From Planctomycetota bacterium (GTDB taxonomy: Bacteria; Planctomycetota; Phycisphaerae; Phycisphaerales; Phycisphaeraceae), in NCBI GenBank assembly GCA_024279865.1, contig JAJRRC010000028.1, positions 1 through 42,664 of the forward strand: 42,664 nt of DNA, written 5' to 3'. Below the pieces are notes generated by a model. It made no database searches, was not told the DNA's origin, and saw only the letters and a program-made list of their open reading frames with translations. This document shows positions 7,693-39,736 of this stretch, in pieces. The position numbers and the translations under genes were made by a program. Each line of letters starts with the position of its first letter. Position 1 is the stretch's first letter.

Positions 7693-7895
7693 GATTGGAC
7701 CTTTTTGAAGGCGACTAAATATAAAGACATTATAGTCTTTATATTTAAGATTTCAAGTAGAATTCATGTTTGGGGTCAGGTGGAGTCGGGTCATTGCACC
7801 TTGGATTTGGGCATTGCCATTTTTTTTATGCGTTTGCGTGTGATCATCACAACGCCGCATGCTGAAGGCCCTTGGGGCGTGAAGCGTCGGATTTG

Positions 7896-7962
7896 AGGCC
7901 CAAACTTCCGGGGGGTGTTTCCAACGGCATTGGGTATTCGTAAGGCCCAAACTTCCGGGGGG
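7896..7962. repeat. 20-bp direct repeat pair
   Basis: AGGCCCAAACTTCCGGGGGG occurs at 7896-7915 and again at 7943-7962, 47 bp apart, in the gap between malic enzyme and isocitrate dehydrogenase. The G-runs are unusual for this otherwise mixed-composition DNA. The rest of 7693-7895 shows no gene and nothing else I can name. Confidence 0.7.
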
Positions 7963-9411: not shown

Positions 9412-9954
9412 TTACAGATTTGTGGGGGCAGGATCTGTTTGAAATATCCAAGCCCAATTCCCTTGTTTGGCGTGTGCTTGAATGTATTGATAAACCTGTT
9501 TTTGGTGTTTGGGGTCGTTGATTGCAATGGGTTTGCCACTTCGAGCCCAGAGGGTCCCGGGCAATTCGTGTCGGACAGCATGCGACGCAGCCTGTTTGAT
9601 TTTGGCAGCATGTTTCAACGCTGCGTTGTAATCGTCTTCGAGTTCGACTTGCAGATGGGTATGCGTAGAGCCCACGCTGATGGCGAGTGTTTGAACATTG
9701 AGGTTCGCAGATTTACGAAGAATCGCTTGCCCGATGATGGGATACAAATGGGATGGCAGGACCACTTTTTTTTGAAGTTGATTTTTGGCGTATTGATGAA
9801 GTTTTTGATGTTCTCCAGCAGGGGGTGATTTTTTGTAGTCACCACTGCTGTGGATTCGGTGTTGACGTGTTCGAAAGCCCCGTGGGTCGCCATGTAGCCA
9901 TGAGCCTTTGGTGTGCAAAATGAGATGCCACCATGCGCAGTGAGGCTTGGGCAT
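9412..9954 (-). CDS. Y1/RAYT-like transposase-related protein
   Basis: A 180-aa soluble protein. Near the N-terminus it has [20 protein letters not shown], then [15 protein letters not shown] recall this arrangement from planctomycete proteins annotated as IS200/RAYT-like transposases. A candidate HUH metal-binding motif is in [10 protein letters not shown], where the middle residue is Thr instead of a bulky hydrophobic one. A candidate nucleophilic Tyr is in VYQYIQAH, about 75 residues later. If active it would nick single-stranded DNA at hairpin repeats. AAGGA lies eight bases before ATG. The start is 46 bp from an element with 20-bp terminal inverted repeats (10001-10111), the kind of arrangement RAYT genes have with REP sequences. 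It could also be a domesticated, non-transposing relative. Confidence 0.6.
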
Positions 9955-10000
9955 GGTGCGAATCCTTCAGGGGTTAATACGGAGAGTCTGTTGGGGGGGG

Positions 10001-10111
10001 CGATCCCAGCCTTCGCTGCGATTAGGCAAGGGCTTTTCCCTTGGTTGCCAGACTAACAGGGTTCAAAAATTCTCACAAGCCCAAGTCTAAGCGCAGCGAA
10101 GACTGGGATCG
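10001..10111. repeat. palindrome-ended 111-bp element beside the RAYT-like gene
   Basis: CGATCCCAGCCTTCGCTGCG (10001-10020) is repeated inverted at 10092-10111 with 19 of 20 bases matching. Inside is a second hairpin, CAAGGG-ctttt-CCCTTG (about 10027-10043). It lies in the 5' flank of the RAYT-like gene. Confidence 0.7.
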
Positions 10112-10177
10112 ATTTTCACAAAGCGTTTTCCCATGAAACAGTCATCACCCCACCCCGGTGACATCCTCAGCAGATTT

Positions 10178-11674: not shown

Positions 11675-12390
11675 TTAGGCTGACAGGAATCCGATATCGA
11701 TTCGGTCGTTGACTTGTCCAGTTAAGACCGAGAACACGCCCGATCGGCCGGTGGAGCTGTTGACATCACTGTCCAACGCATCGCTAGAGCCTTGGCCTTG
11801 AAGGGTGAAGTTAAAGCCTGCCAGTGCTAGGACATGAATCTGGTAGTCGCCGCTCGCCAGATTTTCAAAGACATAGAATCCGCCAGCACTGGTGGTCGTC
11901 GTCGCCACATCGAGGCCATTTTCATCGAGCAGGTTGATGGTTACGCCGTCGATACCAGTTTCGCCATTGTCCTGAATCCCGTTGCCGTTGGTGTCGTTCC
12001 AGACAAAATTGCTGATCGAAGCAGAGCTTTGGTGCAGGCCGATATCGAAGGTATCGTTGGGTTGTCCTGCGACAATGGAGAAGATGCCAGAGCGTCCGTT
12101 TTCTCGGTTGACATCACTGTCTAACGCATCGTCAGAACCTTGGTTTTGCAGGGTAAAATCAAAGCCTGTCGGGGCCAGGACGTAGAGTTGATAATCGCCT
12201 GTTGCGATATTGTCGAAGGCATAAAACCCGCCGTTGGCGGTGGTGGTCGTGGCGATGTCGATGCCGTTGTCGTCAAGGAGGTTGACGGTAATGCCGTCGA
12301 TACCCGCTTCACCTGCGTCTTGGATACCGTTCTGGTTAAGGTCATTCCAGACGAAGTTGGAGACTGGAGCAGTGGGAGGCGTGGGGGGTG
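11675..12390 (-). repeat. two SdrD-B modules, block B
   Basis: Two tandem copies of a roughly 115-codon module, each beginning with SNFVWND and ending near the phrase NDxxDIG. They follow a PP/PT linker encoded around 12365-12415. They are the C-terminal end of the giant protein. Confidence 0.8.
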
Positions 12391-15300
12391 TTGGAGGAAC
12401 GGGGGGGAGGGTCAGCCCCGTGCCATAAACGAGATAGGTTTCGCCTGCGAAGCTATTGCCGTTGGGATCAGCCGCGTATGCTCCGATGAGCAAATCGGCG
12501 AAGCCGTCGCCGTTCACATCACCAGCGGAGGAAACAGAAACACCCGAGCGGTCACTTTTATCAATGCCGTTAAACACCGCGCCGTTTCGTGTGCCAGCCG
12601 CGATCTCCGAAAAATTGACCACGCCGGTCAAGCCAGATGCCTGACCATAAACCAAATAGGTTTCGCCTGCTACGCTATTACCGTTGGGATCAGCAAGCCA
12701 TGCCCCGATGAGCATATCCGCATAGCCGTCACCATTCACATCACCAGCGGAGGAAACAGAAACACCCGATGCATCCCTTCCATCAATGCCGTTAAACACC
12801 GCGCCGTTTCGGGTGCCAGCAGCAATCTCAGAAAGGTTGATCACACCGGTCAAGCCAGACGCCTGACCATAAACAAGATAGGTTTCACCTGCTGCGCTAT
12901 TGCCGTTGGAATCAGCCTGAGATGCTCCGATGAGTAGATCGGCGTAGCCGTCACCATTCACATCACCGGCGGAAGAAACAGAATTGCCCGAGCGGCCATA
13001 TGCATCAATGCCGTTAAACACCGCGCCGTTTCGGGTGCCAGCAGCAATCTCAGAAAGATTGATCACCCCGGTCAAGCCAGACGCCTGACCATAAACAAGA
13101 TAGGTTTCGCCTGCTTTGCTATTGCCGTTGGGATCAGCCAACTGTGCCCCGATGAGCAGGTCGGCGAAGCCGTCACCATTCACATCACCGGCGGAGGAAA
13201 CAGAAACGCCCGAGTTGTCATCTGCATCAATGCCGTTAAACACCGCACCGTTTCGGGTGCCAGCAGCAATTTCTGAAAGATTTATCACGCCGGTCAAGCC
13301 AGACGCCTGGCCATAAACAAGATAGGTTTCGCCTGCTTGGCTATTGCCGTTGGGATCAGCCCAATTTGCTCCGATGAGCAGATCCGCGAAGCCGTCACCA
13401 TTCACATCACCGGCAGAAGAAACAGAAACGCCCGAGCGGTCATCTGCATCAATGCCGTTAAACACCGCACCGTTTCGGGTGCCAGCAGCAATCTCAGAAA
13501 GATGGATTACACCGGTCAAGCCAGACGCCTGACCATAAACCAGATAGGTTTCGCCTGCTTGGTTATTGCCGTTGGGATCAGCTCCCAATGCCCCGATGAG
13601 CAGATCCGCGAAGCCGTCACCATTCACATCACCCGCGGAGGAAACAGAAACACCCGAGGTGTCACTTGCATCAATGCCGTTAAACACTGCGATGTTTCGT
13701 GTGCCAGCCGCGATCTCCGAAAAATTGACCACGCCGGTCAAGCCAGATGCCTGACCATAAACCAGATAGGTTTCGCCTGCTACGCTATTGCCGTTGGGAT
13801 CAGCCCCAGTGGCCCCGATGAGCATATCGGCGTAGCCGTCACCATTCACATCACCGGCGGAAGAAACAGAAACGCCCGAGAAGTCACTTGCATGAATGCC
13901 ATTAAACACCGCGCCATCGAGCGTGCCTGCTGCGATGTCTGCTAGTTCAATCACGCCTGTTAAAGCAGGGTGATGCAAGCCTGCATCGAGGGTGTCATTT
14001 TGTTCATTGGCTGCAAGGCCAAAGACAGCGGTGTAGCCGGCGGCATCAATATCACTATCAACGGTGTCATCGGAGCCTTGATTTTGCGGGGCGACATCAA
14101 AGCCTGCCGGTGCAACGACCTGAAGCTGATAGTTTCCCGCAATCAGGTTGTGAAAGGCATAGAGTCCGCCACCTGTGGTGGTCGTGGTGGCAACTGGTGT
14201 TCCTGTCGTGTCGTCGAGGAGGTTGACGGTCACGCCGTCGATGCCTGGTTCGCCTGCGTCTTGAATGCCGTTGAGGTCAAGGTCATTCCAGACGAAGTTG
14301 GAAACTGATGCCGTGGCCGGGGGATCGACAGGCGGTGGTGCCAGCCGACTGAATAAGCCTATATCAAGCGTATCGTTGTCTTGTCCAGCCCCAATGGTGA
14401 ACACGCCGGAGCGGCCATTGGTATTCACATCGCTATCCAAGGCATCGTCGAAACCTTGGTCTTGCAAGGTAAAATCAAAGTCTGCCGGTGCGATGACGTA
14501 AAGCTGGTAGTCACCACTTGCAAGATTGTTGAAGGCATAAAAGCCGCCCCCGGAAGTCGTGGTCGTGGCCACGTTACGGCCGTTGTCATTGAGCAAGCTG
14601 ATGGTTACGCCGTCGATACCTGTTTCGCCGTTGTCCTGAATGCCGTTCTGGTTGAGGTCGTTCCAGATGAAATTGCTGACCGAGGCGGAGTTTTGGTGCA
14701 GGCCAATGTCGAGGGTGTCATTGGCTTGTCCAGCGATAATAGAGAACACCCCTGAGCGGCCGGTGTTGCGGTTGACATCACTGTCCAGCGCGTCATCAGA
14801 ACCCTGGTCTTGCAAGGTAAAATCAAAGCCATCGGGTGCGATGACATGGAGTTGGTAATCACCTGTTGGGATGCTCTCAAAGGCATAGAATCCGCTGGCG
14901 TTGGTGGTGGTCGTGGCAATGTCGATGCCGTTGTCATTGAGGAGGTTGACGGTGATGTCGTTGATACCCGGTTCGCCTGCATCTTGAATCCCGTTGCCGT
15001 TGAGGTCATTCCAGACGAAGTTGGAAACAGGAGAGGTCGGGGGGGAGGATGGCCCTTTGCCATAAATTAGGTAGGTTTCGCCTGCGGAAAATTTGTTGCC
15101 GGGACCGATTCCATATGCCCCGATGAGAATATCTTCAAAACCGTCTCCATTTACATCACCTGCAGAGGCAACAGACCGGCCCGAAAAGTCATTTGCATCA
15201 ATGCCGTTAAACACCACGCCATTTCGGGTGCCAGCAGCAATCTCCGAAAGATTGATTACACCGGTCAAGCCAGACGCCTGACCATAAACAAGATAGGTTT

Positions 15301-16780
15301 CGCCTGCACAACCCTTGTAGTTGGGAGAAGCCCGATCTGCCCCGATGAGCAGGTCGGCGAAGCCGTCACCATTTACATCACCTGCCGAGGCAACAGACCG
15401 GCCCGAGTTGCTCCACATATTAATTCCGTTAAACACCGCTCCATTACGTGTGCCAGTAGCGATCTCCGAAAGATTGATCACCCCGGTCAAGCCAGACGCC
15501 TGACCATAAACAAGATAGGTTTCGCCTGCTGTGTGATTGCTGTTAGAATTAAGCCCATACGCCCCGATGAGCAGATCGGCGAAACCGTCACCATTCACAT
15601 CTCCTGCGGAGGAAACAGAACTGCCAGACCAGTCATTTGCATCAATTCCGTTAAACACTGCGCCGTTTCGTGTGCCAGCAGCGATGTCTGAAAGGTTGAT
15701 CACACCGGTCAAGCCAGATGTCTGGCCATAAACAAGATAGGTTTCGCCTGCCCAACGATTGCCGTTGGGACCAGCCTTATATGCCCCGATAAGCAGGTCC
15801 GCGAAGCCGTCACCATTCACATCACCGGCGGAGGAAACAGAAACGCCCGAGAGGTCACCTGCATCAATGCCGTTAAACACCGCACCGTTGAGTGTGCCAG
15901 CAGCAATCTCCGAAAGATTGATCACCCCGGTCAAGCCAGACGCCTGACCATAAACAAGATAGGTTTCGCCTGCTGCGTGATTGCCGTTGGGGCCAGCAAA
16001 CACTGCCCCGATGAGCAGATCGGCGAAGCCGTCACCATTCACATCACCCGCGGAGGAAACAGAAGTGCCCGAGAGGTCAACGGCATCAATTCCGTTAAAT
16101 ACCGCACCATTGAGTGTGCCAGCAGCAATTTCTGAAAGATTGATCACGCCGGTTAAGCCAGACGCCTGGCCATAAACAAGATAGGTTTCGCCTGCCCAAC
16201 GATTGCCGTTGGGATCAGCCCAATATGCCCCGATGAGCAGATCGGCGAAGCCATCACCATTCACATCACCGGCAGAGGAAACAGAAGCGCCCGAGAGGTC
16301 CTCTGCATCAATCCCATTAAACACCGCGCCATCGAGCGTGCCTGCGGCGATGTCTGCTAGTTCAATCACGCCGGTTAACGCCGTGTTGCTTTGCAAGACG
16401 GGTGTGGGGACCGGGAGGCCAACGGACAAAAGCGTACGCGGCTCAAGGTTTCCGAAAAACTGATTGCCGGTCAGAATCTGGGAGACCGTCCGTGGACGTG
16501 ATGGACCCCACCATTTAAAGGGCGATGCGATGCTGGCCCGCAAGTGGTCAAAACTTTGCGCCAAGGTGGATTGGGTTGCGGTGTACCAACTGCCCAGGCG
16601 TTTTTGAATATTGATTCTAGATTGGATTGGGGTCTGCAGATAACCCCGGCGAGGCTGAACCCTCTTTTTGCTGTATCTCAAATTTCCATACTTTGCTGCG
16701 TGATTACGCTGCGTGCATCGTTTTAGCACGGAACGATACCAACGTTGCAAAAGTCGTTGCAGGTGCTTGGATGGCCTCAT
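11675..16780 (-). CDS. giant LEPR-XLL / FG-GAP / SdrD-B repeat surface protein
   Basis: A 1701-aa protein, likely exported. Residues 1-110 are basic (Arg/Lys-rich). The planctomycete LEPR-XLL targeting motif follows as LEPRTLLS at 112-119. Block A has six FG-GAP/integrin-alpha-like repeats of about 74 aa, each with the calcium-loop GDVNGDGFADLLIGA and the blade end AGETYLVYGQASGLTGVI. Then come three SdrD-B (Cna-B-like) domains with WNDLNxNGIQDxGExGI. Block B repeats the scheme with seven FG-GAP repeats, a Pro-Thr linker and two SdrD-B domains. Each FG-GAP array could form a beta-propeller. No sortase, PEP-CTERM or membrane anchor is seen at the C-terminus. GAGGGG lies six bases before ATG 16780. 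Adhesion or cell-surface structure is the likely role, by family only. Confidence 0.88.
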   Translation of the reverse strand: MRPSKHLQRLLQRWYRSVLKRCTQRNHAAKYGNLRYSKKRVQPRRGYLQTPIQSRINIQKRLGSWYTATQSTLAQSFDHLRASIASPFKWWGPSRPRTVSQILTGNQFFGNLEPRTLLSVGLPVPTPVLQSNTALTGVIELADIAAGTLDGAVFNGIDAEDLSGASVSSAGDVNGDGFADLLIGAYWADPNGNRWAGETYLVYGQASGLTGVINLSEIAAGTLNGAVFNGIDAVDLSGTSVSSAGDVNGDGFADLLIGAVFAGPNGNHAAGETYLVYGQASGLTGVINLSEIAAGTLNGAVFNGIDAGDLSGVSVSSAGDVNGDGFADLLIGAYKAGPNGNRWAGETYLVYGQTSGLTGVINLSDIAAGTRNGAVFNGIDANDWSGSSVSSAGDVNGDGFADLLIGAYGLNSNSNHTAGETYLVYGQASGLTGVINLSEIATGTRNGAVFNGINMWSNSGRSVASAGDVNGDGFADLLIGADRASPNYKGCAGETYLVYGQASGLTGVINLSEIAAGTRNGVVFNGIDANDFSGRSVASAGDVNGDGFEDILIGAYGIGPGNKFSAGETYLIYGKGPSSPPTSPVSNFVWNDLNGNGIQDAGEPGINDITVNLLNDNGIDIATTTTNASGFYAFESIPTGDYQLHVIAPDGFDFTLQDQGSDDALDSDVNRNTGRSGVFSIIAGQANDTLDIGLHQNSASVSNFIWNDLNQNGIQDNGETGIDGVTISLLNDNGRNVATTTTSGGGFYAFNNLASGDYQLYVIAPADFDFTLQDQGFDDALDSDVNTNGRSGVFTIGAGQDNDTLDIGLFSRLAPPPVDPPATASVSNFVWNDLDLNGIQDAGEPGIDGVTVNLLDDTTGTPVATTTTTGGGLYAFHNLIAGNYQLQVVAPAGFDVAPQNQGSDDTVDSDIDAAGYTAVFGLAANEQNDTLDAGLHHPALTGVIELADIAAGTLDGAVFNGIHASDFSGVSVSSAGDVNGDGYADMLIGATGADPNGNSVAGETYLVYGQASGLTGVVNFSEIAAGTRNIAVFNGIDASDTSGVSVSSAGDVNGDGFADLLIGALGADPNGNNQAGETYLVYGQASGLTGVIHLSEIAAGTRNGAVFNGIDADDRSGVSVSSAGDVNGDGFADLLIGANWADPNGNSQAGETYLVYGQASGLTGVINLSEIAAGTRNGAVFNGIDADDNSGVSVSSAGDVNGDGFADLLIGAQLADPNGNSKAGETYLVYGQASGLTGVINLSEIAAGTRNGAVFNGIDAYGRSGNSVSSAGDVNGDGYADLLIGASQADSNGNSAAGETYLVYGQASGLTGVINLSEIAAGTRNGAVFNGIDGRDASGVSVSSAGDVNGDGYADMLIGAWLADPNGNSVAGETYLVYGQASGLTGVVNFSEIAAGTRNGAVFNGIDKSDRSGVSVSSAGDVNGDGFADLLIGAYAADPNGNSFAGETYLVYGTGLTLPPVPPTPPTPPTAPVSNFVWNDLNQNGIQDAGEAGIDGITVNLLDDNGIDIATTTTANGGFYAFDNIATGDYQLYVLAPTGFDFTLQNQGSDDALDSDVNRENGRSGIFSIVAGQPNDTFDIGLHQSSASISNFVWNDTNGNGIQDNGETGIDGVTINLLDENGLDVATTTTSAGGFYVFENLASGDYQIHVLALAGFNFTLQGQGSSDALDSDVNSSTGRSGVFSVLTGQVNDRIDIGFLSA
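12420..13975 (-). repeat. seven FG-GAP repeats of 222 bp, block B
   Basis: Near-identical 222-bp units in the gene itself. Bases encoding the calcium loop and blade end are almost invariant. Variation is concentrated in two short spots: the residues before SG-S-SVSSAGD, and the loop before AGETYLVYG. Confidence 0.9.
13980..15055 (-). repeat. three SdrD-B modules, block A
   Basis: Three tandem modules beginning PVSNFVWND, ASVSNFIWND and ASVSNFVWND. The third is more diverged (DDTTGTPVATTT, VAPQNQGSDD) and joins directly to block B. Confidence 0.8.
15060..16385 (-). repeat. six FG-GAP repeats of 222 bp, block A
   Basis: Same 222-bp unit as in block B. The first unit of both blocks has IELADIAAGTLDG where later units have INLSEIAAGTxNG, showing that the whole array was copied as a block. 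Confidence 0.9.
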
Positions 16781-21227: not shown

Positions 21228-21438
21228 GCAGTTGAGTTTTCCCGTTTTCCTTTGTACGTGGCACCTTGTTTTAAGCGTCTAAATCGTTTTCATCGCGGGC
21301 ATTCTCATACCCGATGGGTATAACAAACCTAGGCTAAAGCGTTCTCAATTTGTCGATAGTGTTTAAAAGAATCCGATTTTTGGGAAGACCTTAGAATTCG
21401 GGGTTGTCAGGCCCGCAAGCTCACAGCTTACGCGTCCG

Positions 21439-21554
21439 CTAGAGCATTTTGCATTATTTCTTATCGCCTCTGACTAGGCGGATCGTTTGAAAAATAGCTG
21501 CACGCTTACAGCGTGCGCGTTCGGGGGGGCAAAAAATAATGCAAAACGCTTTAG
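21439..21554. repeat. MITE-like repeat, copy 2 (best preserved)
   Basis: A 116-bp element. The left end CTAGAGCATTTTGCATTATTT (21439-21459, 21 bp) matches the inverse of 21534-21554 at 19 of 21 bases. Inside are two hairpins: CGCCT-ctgact-AGGCG, and GCACGCT-tac-AGCGTGC followed by GCGTTCGGGGGGG. Directly upstream (about 21416-21438), AAGCT-cac-AGCTT followed by ACGCGTCCG looks like a further half-copy of the second hairpin. The rest of 21228-21686 shows no gene. Confidence 0.75.
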
Positions 21555-21686
21555 TGAACCTAACACTCAAATATTGCGGCTTGATGATCAACAATCGCCT
21601 TGGCAACCAAGTTTATGCTGTTTTTCCAGTTGCAGGCCAGCTACACATAACCGTGATACGCTCTAAAATACGGAAAACGCTACAGG

Positions 21687-39601: not shown

Positions 39602-39736
39602 TTAGAGCACATTGCATCAATACTTGCCGCCTTTGATTGGATGATTCGTTTTAAAAACAGCCGCACGCTAACAGCGTGCGCGTCTGGAGCATCCGGGGGG
39701 CATCCGGGGCAAGCCAATGTTGCAAAATTATCTAGA
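39602..39736. repeat. MITE-like repeat, copy 3 (degenerate)
   Basis: Left end TTAGAGCACATTGCAT and right end TTGCAAAATTATCTAG are imperfect inverses of each other. It holds the family's inner hairpin GCACGCT-aac-AGCGTGC followed by GCGTCTGG, and a short tandem GCATCCGGGG. The remaining part of the 623-bp gap 39362-39984 is AT-rich with no gene seen. Confidence 0.6.

Follow-up and report, generated by a model that had tools for sequence, protein, structure and literature searches.

Tamed transposase systems are rare in bacteria; RAYT transposases and their REP elements form one. In the literature cited here, their biochemistry rests on the GTAG-tagged REPs of Proteobacteria. In the accessible part of Quentin et al. 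(2018, PMC6006769), the enzymes are classed by the HUH motif, the Y motif and the REP foot. Table 1 of that paper gives Y---Q for class 1, and Y---NP for class 2 together with a GT[AG]G foot where the REPs are canonical; at position Y+4 the IS200 proteins carry Gln and the class 2 proteins Asn, and Q131 and N119 are described as essential. The accessible text of Di Nocera et al. (2013, PMC3733652) reports GTAG repeats from the PVC superphylum, TIRs at the flanks of RAYT genes, the motif GGGGWSAS for the TIRYT/TIRtron group and, in R. baltica, numerous tyrosine transposase genes that have repeats beside them. According to the available portion of Corneloup et al. (2021, PMC8266576), foot, bulge and loop of the hairpin all matter for the enzymes tested there.

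We analysed a stretch of 42,664 nucleotides from a Planctomycetota bacterium (the window), in which the initial annotation had placed a RAYT-like gene next to a palindrome. The features of the system are listed below, with scores for two REP models, R1 and R2.

9412-9954, minus strand: RAYT-like Y1 HUH gene, an ORF of 180 aa with an ATG start (HTH at residues 98-100, Trp136, Tyr157, His161)
10001-10111, no strand assigned: REPIN-like doublet of two inverted REP units, between the RAYT-like gene (minus strand) and a sulfatase gene (plus strand)
10000-10037, plus strand: REP unit, first arm of the doublet, AT-CCCAGCC-TTCGCTGCGATTA-GGCAAGGG-CTT (R1 46.0 bits, R2 36.8 bits, filters off)
10075-10112, minus strand: REP unit, second arm of the doublet, AT-CCCAGTC-TTCGCTGCGCTTA-GACTTGGG-CTT (R1 50.8 bits, R2 41.7 bits)
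21368-21406, plus strand: single REP unit of the genome's abundant type, adjoining a MITE-like element (R2 33.6 bits, E 1.3e-8; not a row of the model)
7850-7895, minus strand: single REP unit with an enlarged loop (R2 25.2 bits, E 8e-6; not a row of the model)

Both arms of the doublet are rows of R1 and R2, so their own scores are not independent. The geometry of gene and palindrome was confirmed as first described: arms 10001-10020 and 10092-10111 pair at 19 of 20 positions, the element spans 111 bp, and it lies 46 bp from the start codon. An isocitrate dehydrogenase gene follows downstream on the same strand as the RAYT-like gene, and the sulfatase gene lies beyond the doublet. Elsewhere in the window (11675-16780), a 1701-aa ORF contains FG-GAP repeats (13 stretches) and five SdrD_B domains, and its region carries 222-bp DNA repeats in two arrays.

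The H-x-H motif and downstream tyrosine proposed for the protein were borne out. The motif reads HTH, with Thr and not a hydrophobic residue in the middle, and H98, H100, W136 and Y157 are invariant in two alignments that include the window protein: A1, with 27 of 30 homologue loci (L017, L022 and L027, broken or truncated, were left out), and A6, with the window protein and 55 of the 73 ORFs listed as complete. W19, G22, D23, R25 and G26 are also invariant in A6, an extended N-terminal conservation. The Y motif is YIQAH, placing His161 four residues past Tyr157; this histidine is conserved in at least 90% of A1 rows and is not flagged as such in A6. Among the Y motifs listed, most homologues have Y-x-x-x-H, and nine have Gln instead (L112, L119-L121, L123, L124, L127, L130 and L142). 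Five of these nine come from Gemmataceae MAGs, other homologues from the same family carrying His at Y+4. We infer that His161 may hold the metal.

Single-sequence comparisons gave low scores. The window protein reached 15.8 bits with Pfam Y1_Tnp (curated cut-off 23) and 18.3 bits with the NCBIfam model for REP-associated tyrosine transposases (cut-off 80), and a phmmer search of the PDB with this protein returned no match. At E <=0.01, 13 of the 27 A1 rows match Y1_Tnp, the window row not among them, and 20 match the NCBIfam model. With the A1 profile, the first PDB match was 4er8, the E. coli RAYT (E 0.0017), followed by IS200/IS605 transposases. An AlphaFold model from the 56 rows of A6 had a pLDDT of 88 and a pTM of 0.81. 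In a Foldseek search with this model the best 30 rows were all IS200/RAYT-type transposase chains, with modest TM-scores (0.38-0.49 by query length); 4er8, an E. coli RAYT-REP complex, came first (E 3e-5). With VIA-align, IS608 chains scored Z 12.1 and 4er8 scored Z 11.3 (126 residues, 3.6 Å), a tie within 1; ISDra2 chains also scored as high as the RAYT. Thg1, viral Rep and other folds ranked below the Y1 rows in both comparisons, and we took them to share the ferredoxin-like core. By predicted fold, profile and motifs, the window protein is thus a putative Y1 HUH enzyme, and the structural check proposed with the initial annotation came out in favour of the Y1 fold. Between the window gene and its closest homologue dN/dS is about 0.12 at a dS of 1.25, so the gene has been maintained by purifying selection.

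A first search of genome contigs found no relative of the protein; a later, alignment-based search did find relatives. Homologues are present in 31 of 61 genomes, the window's own included, and a profile search of 301 genomes of the order gave matches in 141, of which 65 were at E 1e-30 or better. The homologue loci used below are the best 80 of 188 from the alignment-based contig search, mostly labelled Planctomycetota. A tree of 43 proteins, 16 of them further Y1 proteins from the own genome and its relatives, groups the 27 A1 rows into a clade of their own (100/100); its deeper branching order is uncertain, and the IS200 branch is very long. Relatives also have four proteins with class-3 motifs, which form another clade, separated from the window clade at 100/100, and which carry WLxGDxRG as well; the labels class-3-like, class-2-like and IS200-type were assigned here from motifs. 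More Y1-like proteins in related genomes (L288, L290-L293, L297, L299 and L300), with WLxGDxRG-like and Y-x-x-x-HN motifs, cluster together weakly. No second member of the window clade was found in the own assembly (3.42 Mb, 95.7% complete), whose other Y1_Tnp matches above the cut-off are one IS200-type TnpA and one fragment, with two weak ones besides.

From 100 dinucleotide-shuffled versions of the window, the expected count of the 20-mer arm at up to three mismatches was 0.00. The region folds far better than shuffles both as RNA (z = -6.5) and as DNA (z = -3.7). A repeat finder extends the arms to 35 nt at 86%. Beyond what had been described, each arm is an imperfect hairpin of its own, and the element is therefore a REPIN-like doublet. 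The unit consists of AT, a 7-nt stem arm, a loop starting TTCG, a 3′ arm in which one base is often bulged, and CTT. Rfam gave no family at the gathering score in the window and low-scoring hairpin matches at the palindrome. An R2 scan of the window found the two further units listed above and no unit downstream of the gene.

The palindrome had been expected to be dispersed in the genome if the gene mobilised it. Neither the 20-mer pair nor the 111-bp element has a second copy in the own assembly, so the expectation failed in its literal form; that test is too strict, because the repeat unit is half the palindrome. As single units, REPs are dispersed. R1 gave three strong matches in the own genome (the two palindrome arms and one solitary copy) and then 78 weaker ones. 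The 23 of these that were inspected have the frame and feet of the window pair and other loops (TTCGGAAGACCTTA and similar), and an R1 count of 47 from a genome survey represents mostly the same units at low score. R2, made from the 21 own-genome rows (20 distinct) of alignment A5, which were found with R1 and include the window's pair, gave at least 149 matches from 150 scored candidates, one arm of the window pair among them. The weakest of these scores 22.5 bits, and the best background in the window 13.4 bits.

The abundant units differ from the flanking pair in their loops and mostly in the outer stem (CCG for CCC), and one copy, C38:142352, combines the abundant frame with a TTCGCTGCG loop. 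Their stems covary, with 92.9% of cells paired against 78.8% in shuffles and a covariation score of 0.377 against 0.104. We located 79 copies, comprising 75 of 76 REP hits and the four in the window, with ORFs of at least 110 aa standing in for genes. Seventy-three, the window pair included, are extragenic, compared with 79% of random positions falling inside ORFs; among the 72 copies between two ORFs, 45 are in convergent, 24 in co-oriented and 3 in divergent settings. This extragenic dispersal resembles that of REPs.

Other repeats adjoin some of these units. A MITE-like element of about 126 bp with 29-nt inverted ends occurs in the window at 21434-21559, 2653-2733 and 39603-39683, and has at least 40 matches in the genome, where 40 of 106 candidates were scored. 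Two sequences resembling parts of it lie beside own-genome REPs: 19 of 79 have a left box, GTCGCGTTTGAAA, compared with 12 of 1500 random places, and 7 of 79 have a right hairpin, GCAAGCTTACAGCTTGCGCGTC, compared with 1 of 1500. Such elements may have taken up REPs by insertion or may have captured them, both at 21368-21559 in the window and at REP loci elsewhere in the genome. There is also a perfect 20-bp direct repeat, AGGCCCAAACTTCCGGGGGG, at 7896-7915 and 7943-7962 (starts 47 bp apart), and similar words (ACTTCCGGGG) adjoin a few dispersed REPs.

Units of the flanking type also occur in other genomes. Among 61 genomes the loop word TTCGCTGCGMTYAG had matches in 16, compared with 5 matches in total for the reversed control. 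Of the matches listed, four lack a stem (L057, L064, L066 and L076) and the remainder have the common stem and feet; genome G025 has 49 loop-word sites, among which 17 pairs stand in inverted orientation at a spacing of 48-50 bp. Covariation is seen in the inner stem, where 86.0% of cells pair, compared with 59.7% in shuffles (score 0.531 versus 0.127); in both unit alignments two of five covariation measures were not clearly above shuffles. The 31 rows of alignment A3 were picked by the loop word, without the four stemless matches and with few of the numerous G025 copies, and A4 retains the 20 of these rows that have the longer 3′ arm. The covariation counts thus come from selected rows, and the conserved loop of A3 follows from the way its rows were picked.

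Hairpins also lie upstream of the gene in most of its relatives. Inverted repeats with a score of at least 12 were found within 180 bp upstream at 51 of 78 homologue loci and downstream at 33 of 78, with 1-4 of 74-77 in tiles farther away. As these farther tiles are mostly coding, we added control tiles beside other genes, mostly intergenic and drawn from 66 of the 80 loci; 8 of 67 upstream and 12 of 49 downstream tiles contained such repeats. The upstream excess is strong (Fisher 3e-11), and the downstream enrichment weak and non-significant (p 0.06). With no prior motif, AAGCC/GGCTT was the most enriched 5-mer within 150 bp of the genes (182 occurrences against 55.5 expected, at 54 of 73 loci). 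These hairpins, together with the predicted Y1 fold and the weak RAYT/IS200 profile matches, uphold the earlier reading of the gene as RAYT-like.

Gene and REPs are also associated across genomes. When 61 genomes were scanned with R1 at E 0.05, a homologue was present in each of the 15 that had four or more matches, and three of the 30 genomes without a homologue had 1-3 weak matches. At E 0.001 in 301 genomes, REPs were found in 26 of 65 genomes with a strong homologue and in 8 of 236 others (Fisher 2e-13), or in 14 of 53 versus 8 of 236 (1e-6) after removal of the 12 genomes that supplied R1 rows; these counts are of genomes and not of independent events, and kinship inflates the p-values. 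R1-type REPs were absent at this threshold from 39 of the 65, R1 covering one REP type. Some protein match is present in 30 of the 34 genomes with R1 REPs. The four with no protein match are G148 and G289 (at least 22 REP matches each), G163 (7) and G299 (one), and they may have lost the gene, have a gap in the assembly or use another enzyme. G148 and G289 belong to one genus and are possible orphan REP populations.

The closest homologue, L104 in the MAG NORP295, is identical to the window protein at 129 of 173 residues (75%) and comes from a genome apparently of the same family and another genus. Its neighbours are unlike those of the window gene, with a 606-aa ORF upstream that we took for a putative PEP carboxykinase, and REP doublets lie on both sides of it. 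The downstream doublet and a third one about 520 bp farther on are 75% and 72% identical to the window's over 108 bp. The upstream one, in which one arm is degenerate, matches the window's over 43 bp (84%) and the downstream one in two pieces at 86%. Since L104 has both gene and REPs amid other neighbours, the two stay together while the location changes. The two arms of the gene-side doublets differ in their loops. Thirteen further REP places in the L104 genome (E <=0.01) all have the frame AT-CCC...GGG-CTT, and their loops range from TTCGCTGCGCTTA (three places) to TTCGCAGAGCCTCA; one is TTCGGCAGACCTCA, as in the abundant units of the window's genome. Loops therefore drift even inside a single genome.

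We conclude that the locus is a divergent REPtron-like system, in which a RAYT-like enzyme and its REPIN occur together with a large population of dispersed REPs. The gene probably encodes a divergent RAYT-like Y1 HUH single-stranded DNA endonuclease, with the 111-bp palindrome as its flanking REPIN. When the region is single-stranded, for example as lagging-strand template, each REP would fold, and the protein would recognise the stem with its bulge, the conserved AAGCC/GGCTT foot and perhaps the loop; this guess at hairpin recognition draws on the effects of foot, bulge and loop in the accessible portion of PMC8266576. Together with a metal bound by His98, His100 and His161, Tyr157 would then cut beside the hairpin and rejoin the strand elsewhere, and over time REP units and doublets would become scattered between genes. 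On the role of the gene as mobiliser, the presence of dispersed units in a genome with a RAYT-like gene beside its own REPs favours the initial proposal; against it, the abundant copies have another loop, and neither an empty site nor movement of REPs was seen. We infer that foot and loop are recognised, and REPs cut and mobilised, by the RAYT-like protein, and that the abundant copies were spread by the window gene and not by a relative since lost.

The loop difference gives room to another account, in which gene and REPIN arrived together, for example by horizontal transfer, and serve each other only, the dispersed REPs being relics of a lost RAYT that preferred other hairpins. We regard this as possible but rather doubtful. 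REPIN and protein are indeed closest to the set in another genome, that of L104; the abundant units have other loops and mostly the CCG outer stem; the assembly has no other clade member, and two genomes have many REPs and no gene found. The flanking and abundant types nevertheless have a common frame, bulge and feet, C38:142352 joins the abundant frame to a loop of the TTCGCTGCG kind, and the gene-side doublets of L104 themselves combine different loops. The account is further weakened because the 13 dispersed REPs of L104 keep the CCC stem with varied loops, one of them TTCGGCAGACCTCA. It is unlikely that the dispersed hairpins have nothing to do with the enzyme and act as ordinary bidirectional terminators or as stems that stabilise mRNA. 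Their frequent convergent setting would suit such a role, but the conserved asymmetric feet outside the stem (AT, CTT), the regularly spaced inverted pairs of G025 and the association of REPs with the gene, both in its own flanks and in comparisons among genomes, would not. Loop conservation is in part a product of row choice, the rows having been picked by the loop word or by a model that holds it.

The remaining alternatives concern the locus itself. That the gene is the transposase of an IS200/IS605 insertion sequence is very unlikely: the Y1 fold and the VIA-align scores to IS608 and ISDra2 chains, as high as those to RAYT, agree with it, whereas the Y-x-x-x-H motif and the position apart from the genome's own IS200-type TnpA (on a very long branch) do not. 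Its single copy in the genome points the same way, although low copy alone does not exclude a lone IS. It is likewise very unlikely that the element is a MITE, mobilised by a conventional transposase and bounded by terminal inverted repeats of 20 bp, which merely landed beside the gene. The long inverted ends and the presence of MITE-like elements in the genome are set against a single-copy element whose arms are each a hairpin of the dispersed REP kind, and against homologous doublets beside the L104 gene in another genome. We prefer the reading as a RAYT-like enzyme with its REPIN. More tentatively, the window clade could be a separate planctomycete branch of RAYT type, with a three-histidine metal site (H-x-H plus Y-x-x-x-H) that recognises AAGCC-foot, bulged-stem REPs. 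In these the loop could drift or switch as long as stem frame and foot are kept; one enzyme lineage would then have spread successive REP populations, this genome having been caught after a switch.

Compared with described systems, the window clade, judged by its sequence, is outside every class in table 1 of PMC6006769. Of the class 2 RAYT features, Y---NP and the GT[AG]G foot are absent (the feet are AT and CTT); the gene is flanked by genome-dispersed REPs, the own-genome units matching the flanking pair in frame and feet and not in loop. As far as the accessible text of PMC6006769 describes it, TnpA_Y1 class 3 is similar in being found mainly in Planctomycetes, in its length of about 178 aa, extended N-terminal conservation and W-A/T, and in the atypical secondary structures that surround its gene and may occur in large numbers across the genome. 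It differs in having NHVH, Y----Q and a CnGA foot, where the window clade has x-H-x-H, Y---H/Q and AAGCC. The TIRYT/TIRtrons in the available part of PMC3733652 likewise pair RAYT-like genes with long flanking inverted repeats, some partly self-complementary and moderately repeated, and some of the R. baltica genes reported there may belong to the window clade. However, 20 of 26 TIRYTs are subclass 2.1 proteins with a C-terminal HTH, according to the accessible portion of PMC6006769, whereas the window protein stops about 20 residues past the Tyr helix. A literature search covering few subscription papers and no supplements found no description of this clade or of AAGCC-footed REPs.

The REPINs of Bertels and Rainey (2011, PMC3116915), in the part of that paper accessible, also consist of two inverted REPs forming one long hairpin. 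The window element has another foot, and its intact doublet is single copy here; doublets are repeated in G025 and at the L104 locus. With another active-site residue and another foot, the clade would allow hairpin choice by these enzymes to be tested independently, and it offers a natural set of enzyme-hairpin pairs from many genomes. The E. coli RAYT (TnpA_REP, subclass 2.2; 4er8) differs from the window clade in Y-x-x-x-NP in place of Y-x-x-x-H (or Gln) and in a GTAG foot in place of AAGCC/GGCTT; the window loop is 13-14 nt long, and the clade has the N-terminal motif W-L-x-GD-x-RG. The two are alike in the Y1 HUH fold, the low-copy gene flanked by REPs, the imperfect bulged stem and the dispersed extragenic copies, and the analogy by which the locus would work like a RAYT/REP system is well supported.
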